Shown: positions 3,305 through 42,274 of the stretch, one piece after another
How the letters are laid out: each line of letters begins with the position of its first letter
How positions within the stretch are numbered: the first letter of the stretch is position 1
Virus record (IMG/VR): IMGVR_UViG_3300003323_000383
Coordinates: 3,738-46,011 of that record
Reading direction: 5' to 3' (one strand)
DNA from: a virus
Length of the DNA: 42,274 nucleotides
The notes under the pieces: model-generated
Databases searched by the model: none
The model's input: only the letters and a program-made list of their open reading frames with translations
What the model was told of the DNA's origin: nothing
Program-made: the position numbers and the translations under genes

Positions 3305-4143
3305 CATTGCTCTCCTTTGTAGTACAGGTCGGCATAGTACTTCTGCCACGAGGCCTGATCCTTGAATGCCCGGCCCTCGCCCACCAGTTTCTTACCCTGC
3401 TTGATGCAGGCCTCTTTTGCCTCGGGCGGGAGGCTGTCGTACGATTTCGAGCCTCCGCCGCCCCCACCACCGCCGTCGCCGGTAGGCCGACCACCGCCCA
3501 CCTTCCCGGACGAACCGCCCGGAACTTGCCCTTCGGTCATGACCTTCACCACATGGTCGAAGAACGCCCGGCCCTGGAGGTGATCGTTGCGCTCGTCGCT
3601 CCGAAGCATGTGAGCGATGCCCTCAGCCTTCGCGGTCTTGCGCTGGTCCACCCCATACCAAGGGTTGTCGTTCATCCACGCCTGGAAGTCGGGGTCGATC
3701 TGCGGCTTCTGCTGGGTGGGCTGCTGCTGCGTTTGCTGCACAGGCTTTGTGACAGGCGTCGGCGTGTCCTTTAGACCGGCGATCTCGGTCTGGATTTCCA
3801 CCTCGCGAAGCGTGTCGCCCGAATCCCGAGCCTCCTGGAGTTCGGTGGCCAGTCGGCGCTTCTGCGCCTCCAGCTGCGTCTTCAGGTTCTGCTCGTGGAA
3901 GCTTTGCAGCTCGGAAATGGATTCCTGCGAGGCCTTGAACATGCCTGCAAGATGTTGATTCTCGCCGCGAAGGCGTTGCACCTCCTGTTCGAGCCGGCGG
4001 TTTTGCGACCGGACGATCGGGAGGACCTGCTCACCTTTCGCAATGAAGGTCTCCGCGTCGACCCACTTCTCCGGGCCAGAACGGAACTCCTCCAGCGGAA
4101 CCCAGCCCATATCCCGGGCGCGTTGCTCGACATCGTTACTCAT
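3304..4143 (-). CDS. Head scaffolding protein
   Basis: The 279-residue product begins with a motif common to phage scaffolds (ARDMGWVPLEEFRSGPEKWV, about residues 9-28). It continues into a long heptad-rich coiled coil (about 45-130) and a Gln/Pro-rich linker (PVQQTQQQPTQQ). A run of nine Gly near residues 225-235 precedes a basic, helical C-terminus (about 240-279) of the sort that binds capsid subunits. It lies upstream of the capsid genes in the usual order. ATG at 4143 follows AAGGAG with six bases between, and that SD overlaps the end of the upstream gene. Confidence 0.85.
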   Translation of the reverse strand: MSNDVEQRARDMGWVPLEEFRSGPEKWVDAETFIAKGEQVLPIVRSQNRRLEQEVQRLRGENQHLAGMFKASQESISELQSFHEQNLKTQLEAQKRRLATELQEARDSGDTLREVEIQTEIAGLKDTPTPVTKPVQQTQQQPTQQKPQIDPDFQAWMNDNPWYGVDQRKTAKAEGIAHMLRSDERNDHLQGRAFFDHVVKVMTEGQVPGGSSGKVGGGRPTGDGGGGGGGGSKSYDSLPPEAKEACIKQGKKLVGEGRAFKDQASWQKYYADLYYKGEQ

Positions 4144-13231: not shown

Positions 13232-13539
13232 GCGCGCAACGCAAGGGCATGGTGCCGGGCGCACGGTGCATGGTAGTGGGCGGGGCAAACTCAGGCCGGA
13301 CCTGTATCTTGGTCCAGCATGTCGGCCCGTGGGTGCCGAAGCACCGAGACCCCGCCAAGTACCGCCCGCTTGACTCGTGGCGCATCCGCCCGGAAGGGAC
13401 ATTTGTGGCCTTCCGACCCGGCGGGCGGTATGAGTGCGATCGGGAAGGGATTCTGCCCACCTTCCGCCTCATCCCCCTCGATGACCCCGACACACCTACC
13501 ATCGACTCAACCCATAAGGAGAACGAGAATGTTGTCTAG
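13228..13539 (+). CDS. SH3/KOW-like small protein, 103 aa
   Basis: GTG at 13228 overlaps the preceding stop (GTGA). Residues 7-60 follow a KOW/SH3-like pattern: GMVPGARCMVVGGANSGRT with alternating strands, then RTCILVQHVG, DSWRIRPEGTFVAF. Such small barrels bind RNA, ribosome or transcription factors in other proteins, but in phages most copies are uncharacterised. The C-terminal 25 residues are acidic/polar and overlap the next gene by 11 bases. Confidence 0.6.
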   Translation: MSAQRKGMVPGARCMVVGGANSGRTCILVQHVGPWVPKHRDPAKYRPLDSWRIRPEGTFVAFRPGGRYECDREGILPTFRLIPLDDPDTPTIDSTHKENENVV

Positions 13540-14116
13540 CCTCGCATGGAAGCTCACGGCCCGCGTGCTAGCGCTTCCTCCCATCCGTCGTGCCCTCATC
13601 GCGTATGCGGTGAAGCATCCGTACACGCATATCGGCCCGGAAGGGGATGAATACATGATGCGGTATTGGGTGTTTAACGCCTACAATCGCGACTACGAGG
13701 GTCAGCGGTTCCCCCGCCTCCCCTCCATCCGCGTGCACCATATCAAGCGCCCGGACAGCGACGAGCACCTGCACGACCATCCCCTTCGCTCCCGCGTCAT
13801 CCTTCTGTCAGGGTACTATTGGGAGAAGTCAGTCCTGCGCTGGCTCGGCCATAGCATCCCAATGCGCTCCCGCGCGTTACGGGGCGGATCGACGTACTAC
13901 CTCGACCCCCGCAACAAGTACCACGCGATCTACGCGCTCGGTGACGCGGGCGGGGTGTGGTCGGTCTTCATCACATGGCCCAAGCGCGGTGGAGGGGATG
14001 AAGGATCGTGGGGGTTCCTTGTAGACGGCGTGCATGTGGATCAGGCGACCTACAAGCTCATGATGGGCGGCCGGCTCTCGAAGCTGCGCGGCGAAGCCTC
14101 GGGGAGCCAATCATGA
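13529..14116 (+). CDS. Cupin-like metal-binding protein, 195 aa
   Basis: ATG at 13529 follows AGGAG with seven bases between. The central part carries HLHDHP (about residues 84-89) followed by SRVILLSGYYWEK. This is the His-x-His...Gly pattern of cupins that bind Fe or Mn, and proteins of this type recur in phage early regions. A hydrophobic basic N-terminus (residues 1-30) could be membrane-peripheral. Conserved downstream residues include DPRNKYHAIYAL, which may supply the third His. The substrate is unknown, and dioxygenase or epimerase activity cannot be inferred from this alone. Confidence 0.65.
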   Translation: MLSSLAWKLTARVLALPPIRRALIAYAVKHPYTHIGPEGDEYMMRYWVFNAYNRDYEGQRFPRLPSIRVHHIKRPDSDEHLHDHPLRSRVILLSGYYWEKSVLRWLGHSIPMRSRALRGGSTYYLDPRNKYHAIYALGDAGGVWSVFITWPKRGGGDEGSWGFLVDGVHVDQATYKLMMGGRLSKLRGEASGSQS

Positions 14117-29750: not shown

Positions 29751-30089
29751 ATGCCACACCCTCCAACCGTCCGCCAGCTGATAGTCGAAGGGATGGGGTA
29801 CTGCTGCCCCCATCTCTTCTTCACCCTATTCCCTGAAACGTGGAAGGCCGCCCTTCGCCTCGGCGTCACCCGCCGGGCCATCAAGTATGAGAAGCAAAGA
29901 GCCCGCACGGGATGCGCGGGCTGTGAGGGGTGCATGGCACCGAGGCTTAAGGCTTTACAGCACGCAGTGCAGCAACGACCGCAGAAAGATCATGATCTGT
30001 CAACGACACGCCCATCGGCACATCCTCCGGAAGCACCGATAAAAGTGATCCGTCGACAAGCCACAGATGTTCGTGAGGAGGATGACTAG
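29751..30089 (+). CDS. HTH-like Cys-rich small protein, end of early operon, 112 aa
   Basis: ATG at 29751 is two bases after the previous stop, with a weak SD, so coupling is likely. Residues about 1-66 are the likely conserved part: VRQLIVEGMGYCCPHLFFTL, RLGVTRRAIKYEKQRA (an HTH-like helix pair), then CAGCEGCM. This resembles a small HTH-type phage protein I recall at such operon ends. The last 45 residues overlap the convergent lipase gene by 143 bases and look like read-through sequence. The frame contains the late-operon terminator hairpin on the opposite strand. Confidence 0.6.
   Translation: MPHPPTVRQLIVEGMGYCCPHLFFTLFPETWKAALRLGVTRRAIKYEKQRARTGCAGCEGCMAPRLKALQHAVQQRPQKDHDLSTTRPSAHPPEAPIKVIRRQATDVREEDD
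29891..29922 (-). terminator. Late-operon terminator
   Basis: On the minus strand AGCCCGC (29922-29916) pairs with GCGGGCT (29906-29900) around a nine-base loop, followed by CTTTGCTTC. It lies 25 bases after the lipase stop at 29947, at the end of the leftward late operon. It sits inside the plus-strand gene 29751-30089, so it acts on only one strand. Confidence 0.6.
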
Positions 30090-30639
30090 CGCCCCATGTG
30101 GTCACGAATGGGTAGTGCCAGAATACGTCGCGCTCGTGCACCACAGATACGGTGTCGGCGCGATCGTATTGCTTCCAGAACTCCGCATTCCCTGCCTTGG
30201 GGGACTCGAAGGCGAAGATGCCGGCGAGCCGGGACGCGGGGCAGAACAGCGGGGAGTAATACGCCCGCCATCCCCCCAACGAGTGCCCCTCCACCCACAC
30301 CGCCGCACTGCTCGGCAGCCCTTTGAACACCCACTGCCATAGCGCCGGCAGTCCGCAATACGCCCCACGCGCCACCTTCGCCCCGCCCCCCACGTCCTTA
30401 TCATCTACATCAAGGTCGTGGAGGAGGTCCTCCACCTGGTCATCCGCGAACCGGGTGCCAGAGATGGAGAGGTAGGCCGCGCCTTCGCGCATGGTAAGGG
30501 CCGCCTGCACGGCCCCCACCTTGTACTGGCCTACCCACTCCATGCCCTGATCCTCCATCGAGGCCCGACACGCGGCCGGGTCCATGATGTAGGCGGCCTC
30601 ACACCGTAAGGCCGACTCGAGGATGAGTTGCAGGTTCAC
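29947..30639 (-). CDS. Class 3 lipase-like hydrolase in lysis cassette
   Basis: The start is GTG at 30639, overlapping the lipoprotein stop (GTGA). The protein shows the lipase nucleophile elbow VEGHSLGGW (S120), Asp at RDVFWHYP (D171) and His at DHDLSAVV (H216), a plausible Ser-Asp-His triad in an alpha/beta-hydrolase of 230 residues. An upstream motif SISGTRFADDQVEDLLHDLD also fits the Lipase_3 family. No signal peptide is seen. Located at the end of the lysis gene cluster, it may attack membrane lipid or envelope esters during release, like LysB in mycobacteriophages, but in a Gram-negative context this is inference. Confidence 0.8.
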   Translation of the reverse strand: MNLQLILESALRCEAAYIMDPAACRASMEDQGMEWVGQYKVGAVQAALTMREGAAYLSISGTRFADDQVEDLLHDLDVDDKDVGGGAKVARGAYCGLPALWQWVFKGLPSSAAVWVEGHSLGGWRAYYSPLFCPASRLAGIFAFESPKAGNAEFWKQYDRADTVSVVHERDVFWHYPFVTTWGASHPPHEHLWLVDGSLLSVLPEDVPMGVSLTDHDLSAVVAALRAVKP

Positions 30640-33411: not shown

Positions 33412-34995
33412 TTACGGGAGGCGGATTGCGGTGATAACGCCCTGCACTTGGCACGTACTCACATTGAACGAGACGAAGCCGTACAGGTACACAGTCGTGG
33501 TGGAGGCCAGGTTCAACACGCGAGCCGGCGCTTCGATTGTGGGTGTGGCGTTAGCCGTGGTGGTTACACCATTGAAGATAGCCAGCAACGGATTACCCGG
33601 TGAGGTGGCACTTACGGTGGTGATCGCCGCTTGCCAGCCATTCAGTGTAGTCGTAGCTGCAGCTGCATACAGGATGTTTCCGAAGACATACCAGTTGCCC
33701 GGTCCGAGTGAAATGCTTGTGACGTTGGTGGAGGTGAGGTTGGAGATCGAGGTCAGTGTTGAGGTCGAGGTGACTACGTTGCCCCAGTTCCCCGATGCGG
33801 GGTTAGTGCCGCTGGTCGACCCTACCACCGTCGGCGTGGTGATGGTGGGGGAGGTAGCCAACACCGGTCCGCCCGTGCCAGTGGCCGCGCTAGCCAGCCC
33901 GGTCGCCACCCCTGTACCCAGCCCCGATACGCCCGTGGAGATCGGGAGCCCCGTGCCGTTGGTCAGCGTGACCGAGGTCGGGGTGCCGAGTACCGGGGTT
34001 GTGAGGGTAGGCGACGTCCCGAACACCAACGCGCCCGAACCCGTCTCGTCGCTGATGACGCCAGCGAGTTGGGCGGAGGTCGTCGCAGCGAACTGCGCGA
34101 GGGTGCCAGTGGTCAGCGCAGTGCTTGACCCGCACACGAAGCCAACGTTCGACTGGTAGTTCAGTCGGTTGTTGGTGCCATTGCAGTTCGGCATGGCGAA
34201 TGCCGTGGGCGTGGCACTGCTTGCCGTAGCGTTCAGGGGGAGGGTGTTGGAGGCAATCGGCGCGAGTGCTGTCAACGGGATAAGCCCCGTCATGGTGACC
34301 GTACCCGTAGCCGTGAGGTTGGTGAACGACCCCGTCGAGGGGCTTGTGTTCCCCACCGGCGTGAAGTTCAATCCGCCCGTCGATGCAATGACCCCCGCGT
34401 CGCTCACCGAGAAGATACTCGCGTTGTTCGCATCGTTAGCGATCAGGAAGCCCCCGTTCACCACCCGCAGGTATTTGGTAGGCGTCGTCACCCCATTCCC
34501 GGTCATGTGGATACTCACACCGTTGGAGCCGGTGTTCACCACTTGCAGAGTGTTGTTGCCATTCGCCGGCTCGGTGATGGTCTGCGCCTGCGTGAAGCTG
34601 TTGGCCTGATCCGTCTTCGCAACGGTGGTGGTGCACTGGAAGCCGGTGCCCGACGCATACTGCAAGGCGGATGACACACTACTGCAGGATGGGAGGGGCA
34701 CTGCTGCCGGGCTTGCCACCCCTCCCGTCACATTCGCCACCGCTGTGTTGGCCGCCTGCGGCGCGAGCGACGACACTGGCAGCGAACCACTCGCCGGAGT
34801 GAATGTCCCCCGTACCGTGAGGTTGTTAACCGACAGGTCGCCCGACATGTAGGACCCTGAGAGGTTCACCGCCTGCGCGAAGGCCTGATTCAGCTGGCTC
34901 GCACTAAGCGTCTGGCCCGGCACGAACCCCGGATAGATCTGGGCCCCTGCGACAAGGGGCAAGGCTGCTACGATCGTCGCGAGAAGTTTCTTCAT
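33412..34995 (-). CDS. Tail-fibre-like protein with predicted signal peptide
   Basis: The central and C-terminal parts contain recurring phage-fibre phrases: ISDETGSGALVFGTSPTLTT (about 310-329), VLGTPTSVTLTNGTGLP, and many Thr/Ser/Gly/Asn repeats, so it is tail fibre-like. The N-terminus (MKKLLATIVAALPLVAGAQ) is a good Sec signal with an A-G-A cleavage site, unusual for a fibre assembled in the cytoplasm. The ATGA overlap at 34992-34995 supports this start; the SD is weak. An internal ATG at codon 49 is an alternative. Confidence 0.65.
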   Translation of the reverse strand: MKKLLATIVAALPLVAGAQIYPGFVPGQTLSASQLNQAFAQAVNLSGSYMSGDLSVNNLTVRGTFTPASGSLPVSSLAPQAANTAVANVTGGVASPAAVPLPSCSSVSSALQYASGTGFQCTTTVAKTDQANSFTQAQTITEPANGNNTLQVVNTGSNGVSIHMTGNGVTTPTKYLRVVNGGFLIANDANNASIFSVSDAGVIASTGGLNFTPVGNTSPSTGSFTNLTATGTVTMTGLIPLTALAPIASNTLPLNATASSATPTAFAMPNCNGTNNRLNYQSNVGFVCGSSTALTTGTLAQFAATTSAQLAGVISDETGSGALVFGTSPTLTTPVLGTPTSVTLTNGTGLPISTGVSGLGTGVATGLASAATGTGGPVLATSPTITTPTVVGSTSGTNPASGNWGNVVTSTSTLTSISNLTSTNVTSISLGPGNWYVFGNILYAAAATTTLNGWQAAITTVSATSPGNPLLAIFNGVTTTANATPTIEAPARVLNLASTTTVYLYGFVSFNVSTCQVQGVITAIRLP

Positions 34996-35381
34996 ACCAG
35001 TTTCGATTGGTCCAAGATGAAGGTGTAGTCCAGTTCGTCAATGTCGGGGGCGAATCCTAGGTCATCCCAACCCGGCGCCGCGAGATCACAGATGGCACAG
35101 TCCGCCACCCCTACGTCCGCAATCCCATTCCGCCCGAGCCACGAGCACATGGGCGGGAAGAAGTCCTCCTGCGGCTGCTGCCATGGAGGATCGATAACGT
35201 CGGGTACCGACCGGACGAAGTCCTGGGGCTGCCGCTGCTCCCAATGCTCCGGACACACCCAATACCCCTGCCAGTGCTTGATGAGGGTGGAGGCCTTCCG
35301 CTTCCGCCCGCACTGCCAGCACGCCGCATTCCAGTCGCCGAGCTCTAGATAATCCGCCCGGCCGCGAAGAGGCCTAGCCAT
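34992..35381 (-). CDS. Zinc-ribbon protein in tail operon, 129 aa
   Basis: ATG at 35381 overlaps the ATP-grasp stop and has GGAG seven bases upstream; a longer frame to 35405 lacks support. Residues about 20-50 have CWQCGRK and YWVCPEHWE, a Cys-Cys-Cys-His zinc site of a type seen in phage tail-region proteins. A second set of Cys and an aliphatic motif lie near the end (GIADVGVADCAIC), followed by an acidic tail. It is coupled to the ATP-grasp and fibre genes, so it may be their substrate or partner. Confidence 0.65.
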   Translation of the reverse strand: MARPLRGRADYLELGDWNAACWQCGRKRKASTLIKHWQGYWVCPEHWEQRQPQDFVRSVPDVIDPPWQQPQEDFFPPMCSWLGRNGIADVGVADCAICDLAAPGWDDLGFAPDIDELDYTFILDQSKLV

Positions 35382-36660
35382 GTTTCCACTCCGTTGCGTA
35401 GCCAAACCCCTTCAGGGTCTGGAGTTTGGTTTTAACCTTCCGGCCGATGTCGTCCCGGTAGAGAGCTGAGTTGGGGATATGGACTTTCTTGACTCGGGTG
35501 TAGGCGTCCTCGACGGCTTCGGCCACCGTTGCCGCCCGACCGAGGACTGTGATGGGGGTCGTGGAGGCCGTGACCGTCATCGGTTTGCCCATCACCTCCC
35601 CCAGCATCACCCCATCGTGGGCCACCCAGCCCTCTTGCTTCTCCAACCCAAAGATGGGGTAGCCCGTTGCTTCGTCCCGGGGCCGACGGTCGTAGGGGAA
35701 GTCTGGCATAGCCACCGCCACCCCCACCGCGACATCGTACAGCGGCTTGAACTTGTTCTCCCCCCGGACCGCCGCAAGCATCCATTCCGCCTTGTCCGGG
35801 TGGAGGCACTGCTGGATCGCCCACAACGGGTAGCCGAAGCGGCACGTGAACTCCAGCGGCCACGGCCGCCCCCTCTTATCCACGATCACCGCCACGTCGA
35901 TGTAGCCCACATACCCCTGCCGCAGCAGCTCGGGTTCAAGGGGCTTGAGCACTTCCGCCGCTAGCTTGGAGTCGTTCACATACCGCATGACCGTCCCCAT
36001 CTCGCCCGTGTTCGGACCCGAGTCGCCTGCCATCAGCTTCTTGTGCTCGAAGTTCTCGAGCCACGGCCCCACCCAGCCCTGCCGCCCCATGAAGCCACCC
36101 ACTGCGAATTCCGTGCCCTCGATGAACTCTTGGAGCACGATATCCGGCACGGCGTTGCGGTCCCTCTGCCACCGGTCGAGCATGTATAGGAGATCCTCCT
36201 GCCCCTTCGGCACATACGAGAGCGCCTTGGCCACATCGCCATTCGGCTTCACCACAAACCGCTTGTCCGACGCCGAGGCGAACGCCGCCGCATCGCGGAA
36301 GTTCTTGAACGGGTGCGACTCTGCCACTGCGATGCCGTGCTCTGCAAAGACATCCTGGCCCCTCTGCCGGTTCAACTCCCACGTCGTGACTTCCTTCGTC
36401 GCGCCAAAGATGGGGTACCCACGCTTGCGATATCCCTCCAGCGCGTGCATCCCGTGGCTGTTGTCGGAGATCACGATCAGGTCGGCCCACCGCATAGAGG
36501 GCTCCCACTCCCGCATCCGGTGAACCAGCCCCCGCCCGATGTTGTTCGTGTCTCCCTTCAGGATCAAGGGGGCATGGAGCCGAACCTCATGGCCCGCGCG
36601 CTGCGCCTCCACACAGAAGTGCAGGTTCAACGCGGTGTGATCGATGACGAGAATCTTCAT
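35374..36660 (-). CDS. PurD-like ATP-grasp enzyme
   Basis: The 428-residue product is similar in size and layout to GAR synthetase (PurD): an N-terminal nucleotide-type domain (MKILVIDHTALNLHF), FVVKPNGDVAKA (135-146), QEFIEGTEFAVGG (177-189), NTGEMGTV (217-224), and a C-terminal LEFTCRFGYP (269-278). PurD has EFNxRFGDPE; here the Mg-ligand Asn is Thr and the Asp is Tyr, so the substrate may differ. ATGA overlap with the ejection-protein gene at 36657-36660. It lies in the virion operon, not in a nucleotide-metabolism set. It could ligate an amino acid or peptide to a virion protein or to DNA; this is inference. Confidence 0.75.
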   Translation of the reverse strand: MKILVIDHTALNLHFCVEAQRAGHEVRLHAPLILKGDTNNIGRGLVHRMREWEPSMRWADLIVISDNSHGMHALEGYRKRGYPIFGATKEVTTWELNRQRGQDVFAEHGIAVAESHPFKNFRDAAAFASASDKRFVVKPNGDVAKALSYVPKGQEDLLYMLDRWQRDRNAVPDIVLQEFIEGTEFAVGGFMGRQGWVGPWLENFEHKKLMAGDSGPNTGEMGTVMRYVNDSKLAAEVLKPLEPELLRQGYVGYIDVAVIVDKRGRPWPLEFTCRFGYPLWAIQQCLHPDKAEWMLAAVRGENKFKPLYDVAVGVAVAMPDFPYDRRPRDEATGYPIFGLEKQEGWVAHDGVMLGEVMGKPMTVTASTTPITVLGRAATVAEAVEDAYTRVKKVHIPNSALYRDDIGRKVKTKLQTLKGFGYATEWKHG

Positions 36661-39600
36661 TCGTGCTTGCTCCCATAGACCTTGCGCTTCTTGTCCTTCG
36701 CCCGCTCCTTCTTCGCGGCTTCCTTCTCCGCTGGAGTCATCCGATAGACCGGGGTACCGAGGGCCGACAGCGCTGCCCGCTTCGCAGTCTCCTCCGGCGT
36801 CCGACCCGGTGCCCCCGAGTTGAAGGACATCGGCCCCAGGTTAGAGGCGAGATGCCCAATCCTCGAGCCCTGCATCGGGATGGAGCGCCCTTCCGCCGAC
36901 ATATACTCCACGCCGGCAAGCTGGTCGATGACCTCCGAGGGGATCATGCCGAGCTTGTTCAGCGCGGTCTGGCGGGGGTGCAGGAGCCACTCCGGCCCTT
37001 CCATAGCGTGTTTGGCGATCTGTTGGGTAGTCCCATCCCGCCACTCGATCTTCGTCGGGTCCTTGTTGTCCCAAATGGGATGACCCGAGGCCGCGATGTT
37101 GTAGCCATTCATCAGAGTCGCCCACAGGATTGCGGTGCGGAGGACGTACTTCTGGTGCAGAGTCCGGGTGAGTGGCATGGCCCCCGAGCCCGGCAGCGCC
37201 TTGTACATGGCCCGGAAGGTCGACATAGTCCAGTCCGGCGCGAACATCAGGATCTGGAGCGCGCTGCGGCCCCTAGGCGAAAACATATTGAGGGCGATGT
37301 TCCGAGCGATCTGCGACTGCGTCTCCGTCGCCACCCGATACCAGTCCAGCCCGCCGAAGGTATCGTTAACGAAGCTCGATACCTGCTTCGCGATATCCGC
37401 CTTGCTCGCGCCCGGGTTCTTCCGAATCGCCTTCTCGAACTCCCGAGTCGCCAGTGCGAGCTTCAACCCCGTGTGGAGGTAGTCCCAAGTCAGCTTGTCA
37501 AACGTCTTCCGCTGCAGCCCCTCGATCGCCCCGAAGCCCTTTTCGAACGCCGAGAACTTGGACCCGAAGGCCGTATTCACCACCGAGTCCATCACAGCGC
37601 CCAGCTTCTCGCCCGCCCGGACATCCGCCTCCATCGGCTTCTCGATCTTCAAGCCGTTCTGCAACAGCGTGTCGATCGTGTCGCCAAGGCCACCTTGTCG
37701 GTATGCCTTGATCGCGGCGTTGATGTCGTGGATCATAGCCACGCTGCGAACCCCACTCGCGCCGACATAGGCGTTGATCAGGTTCTGCGCGTGGAAGAGG
37801 GACAGGCCCGTCGCCAGCCGCTTCTGCGCGAGGCTGAGGCTCAGCAACCCCCGAGTCACATACCCGGGGTTGGTACTCTCCGCTACGAACTTGATCGCCG
37901 GTGCGAGGTCCGGGTGGACCCGGTAGCCCTGCAGCTGGGGAGTGTTCACGGTCTGGTAGCTCTGCGGTGCGTGCTCGGCCTTCTCGATATACGCCTTCGC
38001 ATTCGGCACCTGCGCGACCTTAGCCGCCTTCAGGTTGTCGAACAGCTTCTTATTCTCGATCGCCCGAGCCATCGACGAGCCGTAGATGTCCACGAGGTCC
38101 GCAATGTCCTTGGTGCGCAAGCGCAGCCCGGTGCCCTGCAGAGCCGCTTCGAGCTGCTGGAAGTTGTCGTACTTCCGGTGCTTCGCAAATCCGGTGTTCG
38201 GGCTCGCACCCCCACTCCCCTTCGCGTCCCCGAATAGAGCATCCATGACCTCCTGCACCTTGGTGCGAGGGAGGGCTTCCCGATCCACCACGTGCGTCAC
38301 GTAGTTCTGGACCAGGTCCTTCAGCACCCCGGCGTTCTGCGCCGCCGCACCAAAGCTCGACGTGAACCCCTTATACGCGTTGTAGACCTTTATCTCCTGC
38401 GCGTTGAGCCCCGCCGGCGACCCAGCCTCCACCGCCTCCGAGATCTTCGCCCGACGCGCTTCATCAGGCACCGCCGTGCGCATGGCCCAGGAGGTGTTGT
38501 ACACCTGCCGCTCCTGCGTAGCGATCTGCCCGTTGCGCGCGTTGATCAAGTCATCGATGGACATGTTGCCCACCATAGGGATCTTAGCCTTCGGCAGCAT
38601 GTGGCTCATGCCCCACATGACGCCGAGGACCGCACCCTCCACCGGGTGATCCTTGTCGAGTTGGGAGAGGCCGTAGCTCACCCCCGCCGTGGTCGCGCCG
38701 AGCTTGAGGGCGCTGCCCCACTTCGACCCAATACGCCCCGCGTACCGGGGGAGGATCGTTGCCGCCAACCCCCCAAACCCGCCCAGGATCGCACCCTCGA
38801 GCTTCTCCCGATCCGCCGCTTGCGCACCGATGTAGGCCCCCGCCGCCACGCCGGCGATCGGGAGGAGGGTCTTCAGGTCCACCGCGCCGCCCTGCCCACG
38901 AGGGGGAAGCGGCCCCGTACCACCGGGATTGCGAGGTCCCTTCAGGCGGGGGACCGGGCCGGGCAATAATGGGGTTGCGGCGGGCGTGGTGGGTTTTGGT
39001 GGGTTTCCTGCCGCGCCCGTGGGGGGTACACCGTCCCCCGCCGTCGACCCCGTGGCGGGCCGATTTTCCATTCCCGGTAACGCATTCTTAGGTGCCTTCG
39101 GCAACGGGTCCAGGATGTCATCGATAGGGATATGGGTGGAGAGAGGGCCCTGCATGACCTCCTTCCGGCGCGCCATGAATTCGTCTAGCTTCTTCCCGAC
39201 CAGCGGGTTAGCCTTGATGGCGGCTTGCGTTTCCTTGAGCGACGCCCCCCGGGACATGAGGTCGTAGGCCTTCCCTTCCGCTGCGATCTCCGCGTCGGAC
39301 TTCTGAGTCAGCGAGTCGTGCATGCGCTGCTGGACTTGCTCGACCGTCATCCCCTCGGGGTTGCCAGTCTCCTTCGTGTACTTCCCGAGGATGTCCTCGG
39401 CGGTCGAGTTCTTGATCTTCCCGGTCTTCAGCTCGTCGGGGGAGAGCTTCCCCCGCTCCATCAGCGCGTAGCGGGAGAACCCCAGCGGAGCCAGGTTCAT
39501 CAGGTCGGTGGCGAGGGTTTGGAGCTGCTGGCTGGTCACCGTCCCGCCGCTGTGCTTCTCCACATAGTCCCCACCCTTCCCGATGGCATCGTTGACCATC

Positions 39601-40334
39601 TTGGTTACCTTGCCGATGTCGGAGTCCTGGTAGTCGTCCTTGTAGCCAAAGGCGTGCATGATCGCCGCAATGGGGCTAGTAGTGTAATGGGCCACGTTCG
39701 CCCGAATCGCCGCACCTTTCGCGCCCTGAGCTTTCGCTTCGGCGGGGTTGGTCGGCAGCGGCGCAAAGGTCTCATATCCCTTCCCTGCGATAGTTGCGAT
39801 GAGGCTCCCCGGCGAGCTGAGCACCATATCGGCGAGCCCCGCCAGGTCCTTCCCCGCCCGGGTCAGGAAGTGGCTAGTGTCCGTTTGCGGTACAGGCTTG
39901 TCAGTGCCAAGACCGATGTCCGCGTCGCTGAGAGGTTTCGCGAGGTGGTCTCGCCATCCAGGGGTCTCATGATCCAGCATGGCATCCCGTAGACGAGCAC
40001 GCGTGGCCCGATCCTCGAGGTTAAGGGGCTCGTCGGGACCAAGGCCCATAGCTCCTGATACGTGTTTGATGTAGGCACGAGTGTTGTTCTCCGACGAAGG
40101 GGCCCACCGGTTCACCACCTTCGAGATGGTGTTCCGACCGGCCTTACCATACTTATCCAGCAACGAGTCCGCCGCGTCGACCCCCTCCTGCATAGAGTTG
40201 AAGCGCTGAAAGCCCTCGGACGCGCCCACAGGGCGAAGGTTCCCAGGGTTGTTGTTCCGCACGCCGAGCGGCGTCCCCGGCGGAAACGGATTGGCCTCCG
40301 TCTGGAGGCCGATGTCTGCGTCGGAAAGTGGCAT
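36657..40334 (-). CDS. Large internal virion/DNA-ejection protein with muramidase-like domain
   Basis: ATG at 40334 overlaps the upstream TAA (TAATG) with GGAGGGG before it, giving 1225 residues. Residues 25-130 carry VRNNNPGNLRPVGAS, then VVNRWAPSSENNTRAYIKHV, the virion-associated muramidase-like ('structural protein P5') pattern. A Pro/Gly-rich linker lies near 430-495, followed by small hydrophobic segments (LLPIAGVAAGAYIGAQAAD, GAILGGFGGLAAT) and a long helical region to the basic C-terminus. It is probably ejected with DNA to open the periplasm. PLSDADIGL occurs twice, at 2-10 and 134-142, bracketing the muramidase domain. Confidence 0.8.
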   Translation of the reverse strand: MPLSDADIGLQTEANPFPPGTPLGVRNNNPGNLRPVGASEGFQRFNSMQEGVDAADSLLDKYGKAGRNTISKVVNRWAPSSENNTRAYIKHVSGAMGLGPDEPLNLEDRATRARLRDAMLDHETPGWRDHLAKPLSDADIGLGTDKPVPQTDTSHFLTRAGKDLAGLADMVLSSPGSLIATIAGKGYETFAPLPTNPAEAKAQGAKGAAIRANVAHYTTSPIAAIMHAFGYKDDYQDSDIGKVTKMVNDAIGKGGDYVEKHSGGTVTSQQLQTLATDLMNLAPLGFSRYALMERGKLSPDELKTGKIKNSTAEDILGKYTKETGNPEGMTVEQVQQRMHDSLTQKSDAEIAAEGKAYDLMSRGASLKETQAAIKANPLVGKKLDEFMARRKEVMQGPLSTHIPIDDILDPLPKAPKNALPGMENRPATGSTAGDGVPPTGAAGNPPKPTTPAATPLLPGPVPRLKGPRNPGGTGPLPPRGQGGAVDLKTLLPIAGVAAGAYIGAQAADREKLEGAILGGFGGLAATILPRYAGRIGSKWGSALKLGATTAGVSYGLSQLDKDHPVEGAVLGVMWGMSHMLPKAKIPMVGNMSIDDLINARNGQIATQERQVYNTSWAMRTAVPDEARRAKISEAVEAGSPAGLNAQEIKVYNAYKGFTSSFGAAAQNAGVLKDLVQNYVTHVVDREALPRTKVQEVMDALFGDAKGSGGASPNTGFAKHRKYDNFQQLEAALQGTGLRLRTKDIADLVDIYGSSMARAIENKKLFDNLKAAKVAQVPNAKAYIEKAEHAPQSYQTVNTPQLQGYRVHPDLAPAIKFVAESTNPGYVTRGLLSLSLAQKRLATGLSLFHAQNLINAYVGASGVRSVAMIHDINAAIKAYRQGGLGDTIDTLLQNGLKIEKPMEADVRAGEKLGAVMDSVVNTAFGSKFSAFEKGFGAIEGLQRKTFDKLTWDYLHTGLKLALATREFEKAIRKNPGASKADIAKQVSSFVNDTFGGLDWYRVATETQSQIARNIALNMFSPRGRSALQILMFAPDWTMSTFRAMYKALPGSGAMPLTRTLHQKYVLRTAILWATLMNGYNIAASGHPIWDNKDPTKIEWRDGTTQQIAKHAMEGPEWLLHPRQTALNKLGMIPSEVIDQLAGVEYMSAEGRSIPMQGSRIGHLASNLGPMSFNSGAPGRTPEETAKRAALSALGTPVYRMTPAEKEAAKKERAKDKKRKVYGSKHE

Positions 40335-41488
40335 TACTCGTCCCCTCCATCCGTGGCGGTCCAGCCATTCCCCGCCCACTTATACACCTTGCCCCCGTGG
40401 CTGTAGTACGCGCCGACCTTGCGGTCCTTCGGGGAAGGCGGAATCGTGTCGATCGGCTTGTCGGGTGAACTACCGGGATCGGACGCGCCCCCCTTACCGG
40501 TTTTCCCGAAGTGCGTAGTCGATTTCGATGTACCCGGGATAGGGAGGCCCATGAACTTGTAGTTATCGTTCAGGGTTTGGAACTGTCCGCTATCACGTGC
40601 CTCCTTAAGCGCCCGTTGTGTTGCCGAGTCCGCATCCATACCCGGCGTCGACTTACGGATGGCCCGCGCACGGGAAGCAATGCTAAACGCCGCATTGTTG
40701 ATCTCATCCTGGGGTAGGTCGGGATAAGCCTGCTGAATAAGGTCTGACGCATGATCCAATTCCGCCTTGACGGGAGTGCCAACATCGGCGGTCTTGCCGC
40801 CGCCCTTCCGCAGCCGATCCTCGCGATCGCGCCGGAGCGCCATCTCGTCGTTCATATACCCCTTCCGGAACTCACGGAAGCTCGCATTCGAGTCGGAGTT
40901 CCGGCGTTGGGTCTCGGCATTGTACTTCTTGATGCCGAGGTCGATCTGGTCCTTCAACGAGAGGGTCTGCTGCTGGAGCTGAGCGACGAACGCCGGATTG
41001 TACTCCATGCCCTCGTAGGGGGATTGCTTGCCCATCATGGACTTGAACAGCGAGTTAGCAGCGTCCCACGAGGCTTGGTCGGTCACCCCACCCAACAGCT
41101 TCTCGACCATCGTCAGCTGGTCCTTCGCGGCGGAGGCCTGCTCGTGGAGGGTCTGGGATTGGGCATGCACGGTCTGGGCTTGCTTCAACCGCAAGGCAGC
41201 CGCGTCCCCAGCCATCTTCGCACCCTGGGTTGTCAGGCCCGCACTATAAGCCAACTTCGCCATGTCCTCCATCCGCTCAGCCATAGGCTTGTCGTTCTCG
41301 CCCGGCTTGCCGGCCTGCTGCCGCATGAGCGCCTGCATCTGAGCATGCTCCTGCAGCTCCATCTGACCCGCTTGATTCTGGATCTGCTGGCCCTGGGTTT
41401 GGGCCTTGATCCCCTCAGTCGTGGCGAGGCGCTGCATATCACTATAGGCAGCCGACGTACCGCCTGCGCTTCCAAAGATGTCAGCCAT
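40334..41488 (-). CDS. Internal virion protein, 384 aa
   Basis: ATG at 41488 lies just after the preceding stop. The sequence is helical, Gln/Ala/Met/Lys-rich (about 20-130 and 150-260), typical of podovirus internal core proteins, and a C-terminal short motif VGAYYSHGGKVYKWAGNGW suggests a small beta domain. There is no membrane signal. It lies directly upstream of the large ejection protein, in the order seen for core proteins that form a channel during DNA injection. Confidence 0.7.
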   Translation of the reverse strand: MADIFGSAGGTSAAYSDMQRLATTEGIKAQTQGQQIQNQAGQMELQEHAQMQALMRQQAGKPGENDKPMAERMEDMAKLAYSAGLTTQGAKMAGDAAALRLKQAQTVHAQSQTLHEQASAAKDQLTMVEKLLGGVTDQASWDAANSLFKSMMGKQSPYEGMEYNPAFVAQLQQQTLSLKDQIDLGIKKYNAETQRRNSDSNASFREFRKGYMNDEMALRRDREDRLRKGGGKTADVGTPVKAELDHASDLIQQAYPDLPQDEINNAAFSIASRARAIRKSTPGMDADSATQRALKEARDSGQFQTLNDNYKFMGLPIPGTSKSTTHFGKTGKGGASDPGSSPDKPIDTIPPSPKDRKVGAYYSHGGKVYKWAGNGWTATDGGDE

Positions 41489-41489
41489 G

Positions 41490-42274
41490 TTAGAACCCCA
41501 GACCTGCTACACCGTAGCCCAGCGCCGCCAGCGAACCCGAGGCGGATTGGTTGGCGAGTGCCTTACCCTGCAGAGCCATTGCGTTGCTTTGCGCGCCGCC
41601 CTGTGCCAGGCTCTGCAGCTGTGCCACTTGGTTGTTGAAGAAGTCGCCACCGTACTTCTGCAGAGCGGCTGCCATGTTGCCCGAGCCTTGGTACCCTTGC
41701 GACGCCATTGAGCGCTCGACCGCCTCCGTCCCGGCTTGGTAGCCCGGCATGGAGGTGATGCTCGACGGGTTCTGCATGAGCTGGTAGAGCTGGTCGGCGT
41801 ACTGCTTCGAATACTGGCCACCCGACTGACCTAACTGCTTGGCCATGTCGTTCATCTGAGAGGCTTGGGTCAGCCCATAGATCCCCGAGCCGAGGCTCAT
41901 CAGGCTCGAGACGGGGCCAAGTGCCGGCGCCTTCCCGGTCGTGAACGCGGAGAGGAAGCCGTTCCCCGTGTTGCCGTTCGGGGCGGGGACCGAGCCCGTG
42001 GTCCCGTTGAACATGCCTAGGCGCGAAGCCGGGCCCACACCCGAGGTACCCGAGCCACCGATCCCCGTCGCGCTGACACCTCCGCCACCACCCGAGAGCC
42101 ACCCAGGGTTCACCGACGCGAGCATCGAGTTCACATTGGAGTACCCGAGTGCGTTCGCCGCCTCGGTCGCCGTGGAGGTGCCCGTGGCGGTCATTGCTTG
42201 GCTGATCGCCTCGATCGGATCGCTCGCACCCGCAAACGCAGCATTAGCACCCGCCTCCGAAATTGGAGCCGCCG
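41490..42274 (-). CDS. Internal virion protein, 5' end cut by window edge
   Basis: The frame is open to the window edge; 26 in-frame codons upstream of the ATG at 42194 read as natural sequence (GANAAFAGASDPIEAISQAM), so the true start is outside. The visible part is Gly/Ser/Ala/Gln-rich, with a helical middle (LYQLMQNPSSITSMPGYQ) and an Ala-rich end (LAALGYGVAGLGF). Its pattern of Gln/Asn/Gly helices suits a small core or ejection protein. It sits before the other internal virion proteins. Confidence 0.7.
   Translation of the reverse strand, partial: AAPISEAGANAAFAGASDPIEAISQAMTATGTSTATEAANALGYSNVNSMLASVNPGWLSGGGGGVSATGIGGSGTSGVGPASRLGMFNGTTGSVPAPNGNTGNGFLSAFTTGKAPALGPVSSLMSLGSGIYGLTQASQMNDMAKQLGQSGGQYSKQYADQLYQLMQNPSSITSMPGYQAGTEAVERSMASQGYQGSGNMAAALQKYGGDFFNNQVAQLQSLAQGGAQSNAMALQGKALANQSASGSLAALGYGVAGLGF

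Follow-up and report, generated by a model that had tools for sequence, protein, structure and literature searches.

The window, a 42,274-nucleotide stretch of viral DNA (positions 3,738 to 46,011 of IMG/VR record IMGVR_UViG_3300003323_000383), carries a gene for a PurD-like protein that, on balance, we take to be an active ATP-grasp carboxylate-amine ligase with the GARS fold, distinct from GAR synthetase, acting on small-molecule substrates and carried as an accessory, late-expressed cassette. The parts of this reading differ in strength. We infer with high confidence that the protein is an active ligase other than PurD, and small molecules (an amino acid or a similar acid) seem its somewhat likelier substrates.

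The ligase gene (35374 to 36660, minus strand) starts with ATG and encodes 428 amino acids. It shares an ATGA stop/start overlap (36657 to 36660, minus strand) with the preceding gene, which encodes an ejection or internal virion protein with a lysozyme-like N-terminal part (36657 to 40379, minus strand; phrog_873, E 1.8e-33); the families matched by this product are phage ejection or tape-measure-like. The latter open reading frame (ORF) comes to 1240 amino acids when counted from a GTG and to 1225 from an internal ATG, in agreement with the 1225 residues given in an earlier note on this DNA. On the other flank, the gene for a 129-amino-acid zinc-ribbon protein (34992 to 35381, minus strand; CxxCG...C..H) starts at an ATG (35381) inside the ligase gene, with 8 bp shared by the two, and the stop of the zinc-ribbon gene overlaps the start (34995) of a tail fibre gene (33412 to 34995, minus strand). 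Upstream of the ejection gene lie the genes for a second ejection-module protein (40334 to 41488, minus strand), conserved in 2 other loci (L002 and L006), and for a gp7-like ejection-module protein (41490 to 42194, minus strand) whose cluster, cluster 1, occurs in 58 of 105 loci. Altogether, ORF, domain and fold evidence bears out the claim of the earlier note that a PurD-like ATP-grasp gene sits inside the tail operon, here a late tail/ejection operon, and is coupled on both flanks. The note had also seen no second purine gene, and a Pfam scan of the 39 window ORFs found none. Elsewhere in the window, positions 13319 to 14116 match PHROG 4786 (E 1.1e-23), which is labelled cysteine dioxygenase, a label that may be wrong because one window ORF matches a uracil-DNA glycosylase family, and a lipase/esterase-like gene (29947 to 30639; phrog_21992) lies in the tail-side operon and is conserved in L002.

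To place the protein, we compared its predicted structure and its profile matches with those of known families. The structure prediction proposed in the earlier note recovered the whole GARS fold: the AlphaFold2 model of the window ligase reached a pLDDT of 94.3 and a pTM of 0.92, and its best match among solved structures was 2yw2 (Z 36.6, rmsd 3.2, 394 residues, 25% identity). The top solved matches were all GAR synthetases, followed by PurK with a Z of approximately 25, and a profile search of PDB sequences with the window ligase returned PurD-type chains only. In Pfam, the protein matched GARS_A (E 6.7e-16) and, just under the cut-off, GARS_C (E 1.1e-7), and had no GARS_N match. No PHROGs family was found for it, and the best match in a viral structure search had a TM of at most 0.46. 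The structural and sequence features of the ATP-grasp superfamily were found, namely the fold with a conserved ATP-binding Lys, acidic metal ligands and a catalytic Arg (invariant E95, K138, E184, K207, E270, and R274). With PurD (TIGR00877; PDB 2yw2, 1gso, and 2qk4) the ligase shares the whole GARS fold, the ATP-binding and catalytic Glu/Lys/Arg residues and the YRxDIG motif, whereas it has neither the GGREHA loop nor the GDPE motif, carries Thr for the Asn of the Mg site, has 2 of the 3 glycine contacts changed, and stands outside any purine context. On the purD model TIGR00877 it scored 119.2 bits, and 6 relatives scored 66 to 109 bits, against a curated cut-off of 288 bits. Common ancestry with PurD is thus clear, and the curated purD model rejects membership. 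The next structural matches after PurD, PurK, PurT, and PylC (Z about 23 to 25), perform carboxylate/amide chemistry on small molecules but are only 11% to 17% identical to the ligase, so that PurD is clearly nearer.

We then aligned 92 ligase relatives with 8 canonical PurD proteins. E95, K138, E184, K207, E270, R274, and the C-terminal YRxDIG motif were kept throughout, and 5 replacements were fixed in 92/92 members (K98R, E177Q, D205E, G220E, and N272T). In the N domain, the 8 PurDs have a GGREHA loop, which is replaced in every member of the ligase family. The motif that reads EFNxRFGDPE in PurD is EFTCRFGYPL in the window ligase (residues 270–279; 35824 to 35853, minus strand), with E270, T272, R274, and P278 invariant in the family, and the PurD motif TGGMGA is TGEMGT (residues 218–223; 35992 to 36009, minus strand), with T218, G219, E220, G222, and T223 invariant. 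Positions 272, 277, and 279 are T, Y, and L in the window ligase and N, D, and E in 8/8 canonical PurDs. In place of the PurD Asp at position 277 most phages have W and most cellular members Y (W or Y in 54 of the 55 phage rows of the alignment), and in place of the PurD Glu at position 279 phages have mostly L, also H, A, or I, and cellular members mostly T. The PROSITE signature PS00184, R[LF]GDPEx, does not match the window sequence RFGYPLW. The Asn-to-Thr and Asp-to-Tyr changes read from the window in the earlier note are therefore real and family-wide, and after correct alignment the Mg ligands of PurD are not intact. In addition, 23 residues were invariant across 69 relatives, and comparison with the nearest relative gave a dN of approximately 0.21 and a dS of approximately 1.65, that is, the gene is under strong purifying selection. 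Because of these invariant residues and a dN far below dS, the motif changes are more than chance.

On its own, the Asn change is no proof of a new reaction; the loss of the N-terminal loop and of the glycine ligands weighs more. A computational study of A. aeolicus PurD gave Asp212, Arg287, and Glu292 as its glycine contacts (PMC8880213), which align with Glu205, Arg274, and Leu279 of the window ligase, so that the Arg alone is retained. This pattern suggests that the Arg still binds the acid, with the glycine site remodelled and the phosphoribosylamine site lost. Glycine is probably not the acid, since the Asp and Glu ligands are now Glu205 and Leu/Thr279 and an aromatic residue stands for Asp277, and the amine is probably not phosphoribosylamine, since the GGREHA loop is gone. 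The suggestion that the fold ligates something other than glycine and phosphoribosylamine thus gains support as probable from the family-wide motif changes in a PurD-fold protein that is not PurD. In the reaction that we propose, ATP would phosphorylate a carboxylate held by the retained Arg274, the amine would attack the acyl phosphate and an amide would be formed, and the phage would carry the enzyme as an accessory cassette expressed late.

To understand how widely this protein occurs, relatives were collected from viral and cellular genomes. Relatives on viral contigs were full length and 38% to 73% identical, and a profile-type scan of IMG/VR yielded at least 572 confirmed relatives. GTDB, with one genome per species, yielded 532, of which the best 80 were examined; among these 80, prophage-like loci came from Paraburkholderia, Glaciimonas, and other Pseudomonadota, and ordinary chromosomal loci from Micrarchaeota and other DPANN, Nitrososphaerota, Planctomycetota, Patescibacteria, Balneolota, Parvularculaceae, and others. 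In a tree, canonical PurD formed one distant clade, the cellular relatives formed another (support 98), and the phage relatives were sister to the sampled cellular clade (support 91). The ligase thus belongs to a separate family, common to phages, archaea, and bacteria, that stands apart from PurD. Half of the 16 genomes with a cellular member that were checked also encode a PurD above the cut-off, 6 small ones have neither PurD nor PurM above it, and the other 2 (G006 and G015) have PurM but no PurD above it, a pattern that could reflect incomplete assemblies or substitution for PurD. Because 8/16 have a true PurD and 6/16 lack both enzymes, a purine role is very unlikely.

The cellular family is patchy, with 29 of 146 genomes in one phylum and 3 of 80 in one order, and no conserved partner gene was found across 57 non-redundant cellular loci. 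Scattered M20/M28/M42-like peptidases were seen near the Micrarchaeota genes, an enolase-superfamily gene with DUF1611 in Balneolaceae, a DapD-like gene in one locus and GNATs in a few; as functional clues these neighbours were set aside as too sparse. A 1343-amino-acid planctomycete frame, considered as a fusion, looked like a frame extension. Several archaeal homologues, among the micrarchaeal L210 and L219–L225, have long Lys/Glu-rich N-terminal tails with EEKKEEKK repeats that are absent from phage members. One micrarchaeal homologue with an ORF of 815 codons (L353; G238:C35:22500-26500) contains an apparent intein that splits the invariant TGEMGT motif precisely at G222/T223, starts with Cys, has 2 dodecapeptide-like endonuclease motifs and ends in ...YWCGN/T.

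The location of the phage gene is more regular. Of 73 viral loci scored for the gene upstream, 55 show the same 4-bp overlap with it, and the remaining loci have a gap or a short ORF in between. The genes upstream of the ligase in 105 viral and prophage loci encode tail adaptor, stabilisation, gp7-like, and ejection proteins, a podovirus-like module. When operons were searched from the ejection protein, the ligase gene was directly behind it in 54 of 78 informative operons and absent from 24, in most of which the next tail gene follows almost directly. On the ejection-protein tree, 12 changes between presence and absence were needed, 11 of them forced by supported branches. In 3 loci without the ligase (L274, L275, and L279), an 82-amino-acid ORF at the usual ligase site resembles a decayed ligase (WPLEWSVRPSWSLFQIQSGLHKGD), which indicates loss in place. 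The contigs of these remnants also appear as L333:3060-3308, L334:6823-7071, and L337:12007-12255, with the sequence WPLEWSVRPSWSLFQIQ... Presence in 54/78 operons and at least 11 gains or losses indicate that the gene is a cassette at a fixed address and not a core assembly gene.

The earlier note had proposed that the enzyme may ligate, for example, an amino acid onto a virion protein, the zinc-ribbon protein or DNA. Of these, a protein target fares best, although we consider it unlikely: the ligase would add an amino acid or similar group to a phage protein and so aid assembly or injection, the best candidates being the ejection and tail proteins encoded on the same transcript. The ejection-operon location and the recurrent 4-bp overlap argue for such a target, as does the GNAT or Asp/Asn-hydroxylase-like gene that frequently lies a few genes upstream. 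The slot between the stabilisation and gp7-like genes (n = 50) held only a GNAT in 17 cases, only an Asp/Asn-hydroxylase/cupin-like gene in 17, both in 4 and neither in 12 (clusters 9 and 12), and the genome of the window has a GNAT gene just outside it (L205:317-787, minus strand). GNAT presence was weakly associated with that of the ligase (12/32 versus 1/15; Fisher p 0.037, uncorrected for relatedness), whereas the hydroxylase-like gene showed no association, and a 3-enzyme modification module of GNAT, hydroxylase, and ligase was rejected on these grounds. The ejection proteins themselves argue against the idea, since an ejection protein with the ligase behind it and one without can be as much as 88% identical, the ligase stays where the upstream ejection proteins are unrelated in sequence (L001 and L003), and no ejection-protein residue tracked ligase presence across 9 non-redundant pairs (p 0.89); a seeming target site came from near-identical contigs and vanished once redundancy was removed. 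No such partner is known for the cellular sister family either, and the proposal of ejection-protein modification thus found no support. A pairing with the zinc-ribbon protein, which the earlier note had suggested checking by co-occurrence, was rejected because the adjacency is not conserved: the zinc-ribbon gene is present in 23 of the 63 loci that extend 4 kb or more downstream and lies far upstream in L003. Phage-borne ATP-grasp enzymes with a protein target have been proposed before, namely the R2K peptide ligases, as modifiers of host proteins (Burroughs et al. 2015, PMC4431377); by their description, these belong to a different, divergent clade. A more specific version is slightly less likely again: recruited from the same ancestor as the cellular ligase, the enzyme would couple an amino acid, or an acid like it, to an ejected or tail protein while the virion is being assembled, a kind of modification not yet described for virion proteins.

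We favour small-molecule substrates because the ejection protein does not track the ligase, the GNAT link is weak, and the cellular sisters are stand-alone, patchy and partnerless. The absence of a docking insertion from the ligase points in the same direction. These arguments are indirect and give the preference modest strength, and the constant position within the late operon is compatible with a virion target too.

It is improbable that catalysis has been lost and that the virion uses the protein for binding or as a structural component. The Thr at the usual Mg-ligand position and the late structural operon would agree with such a role; the ATP-binding and catalytic residues, however, are invariant in phages and cells, 23 residues are fixed in 69 sequences, and the apparent intein of the archaeal member splits TGEMG/T, an insertion point typical of active-site motifs. 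Other active ATP-grasp enzymes, PurK and PurT, are likewise not known to have the Asn of the Mg site.

There is very little to recommend the view that metagenome pipelines would take, in which the gene is a true purD and serves purine synthesis as an auxiliary gene. The GARS_A and GARS_C matches and the GARS fold agree with it, and purD has been called an auxiliary gene in viral surveys (PMC11097641; PMC12043954), among them a report of snow phages with purD (PMC11097641), where a temperate phage of 46.6 kb is one of the complete genomes with auxiliary genes of this kind. However, the score lies below the purD cut-off, the GGREHA loop and the glycine ligands are lost, the family forms a separate clade, and its cellular sisters occur also in genomes without PurM. 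A 2011 study turned down similar haloarchaeal proteins as PurD: in the accessible text of Brown et al. (PMC3261824), the PurD-like Haloarcula rrnAC0307 and Halorubrum Hlac_1553 are judged not to be GAR synthetases on the grounds that they lack GARS_N, the Mg sites and the Asp that is conserved in R[LF]GDPE. These features agree with the phage ligase, a likeness drawn from the description alone, and that text makes no mention of phage members (PMC3261824). In the phage collection, most other purD matches (H2–H28) look bacterial, from mislabelled or contaminating contigs; the 2 that were tested (L203 and L204) both carry GGREHA and the GDPE motif, and one match is annotated purD in a Salmonella contig.

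ATP-grasp enzymes occur in some phage DNA-modification clusters, but participation in DNA hypermodification, the third target raised in the earlier note, is just as improbable here, since the gene lies in a late operon, its cellular sisters are stand-alone, and only ordinary methyltransferases were found, with no hydroxymethyl-base synthase, as the note had said, or other hypermodification gene.

The fold, the general chemistry and 2 extra cellular paralogues, noted in 2011, are already known; we found no description of a phage PurD-like ATP-grasp family in the open-licence literature. This family is common in uncultivated podovirus-like phages and nearly absent from phage records: a single one of the 50,697 records in the phage collection, the uncultivated MW202796, has a clear member, and it carries no annotation for the gene. 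Databases would call this ligase PurD, and if the viral "purD" genes of surveys belong to its family, the conclusion that they are purine auxiliary genes is wrong; bacterial purD on mislabelled or contaminating contigs is a further trap for such surveys. The family also marks an enzyme of DPANN, Nitrososphaerota, Planctomycetota, and Patescibacteria that is retained even in genomes of at most 1 Mb without PurD and PurM. Since cultured strains of Paraburkholderia and Glaciimonas carry prophage-like copies, the substrate of the ligase and its role in the phage can both be tested.
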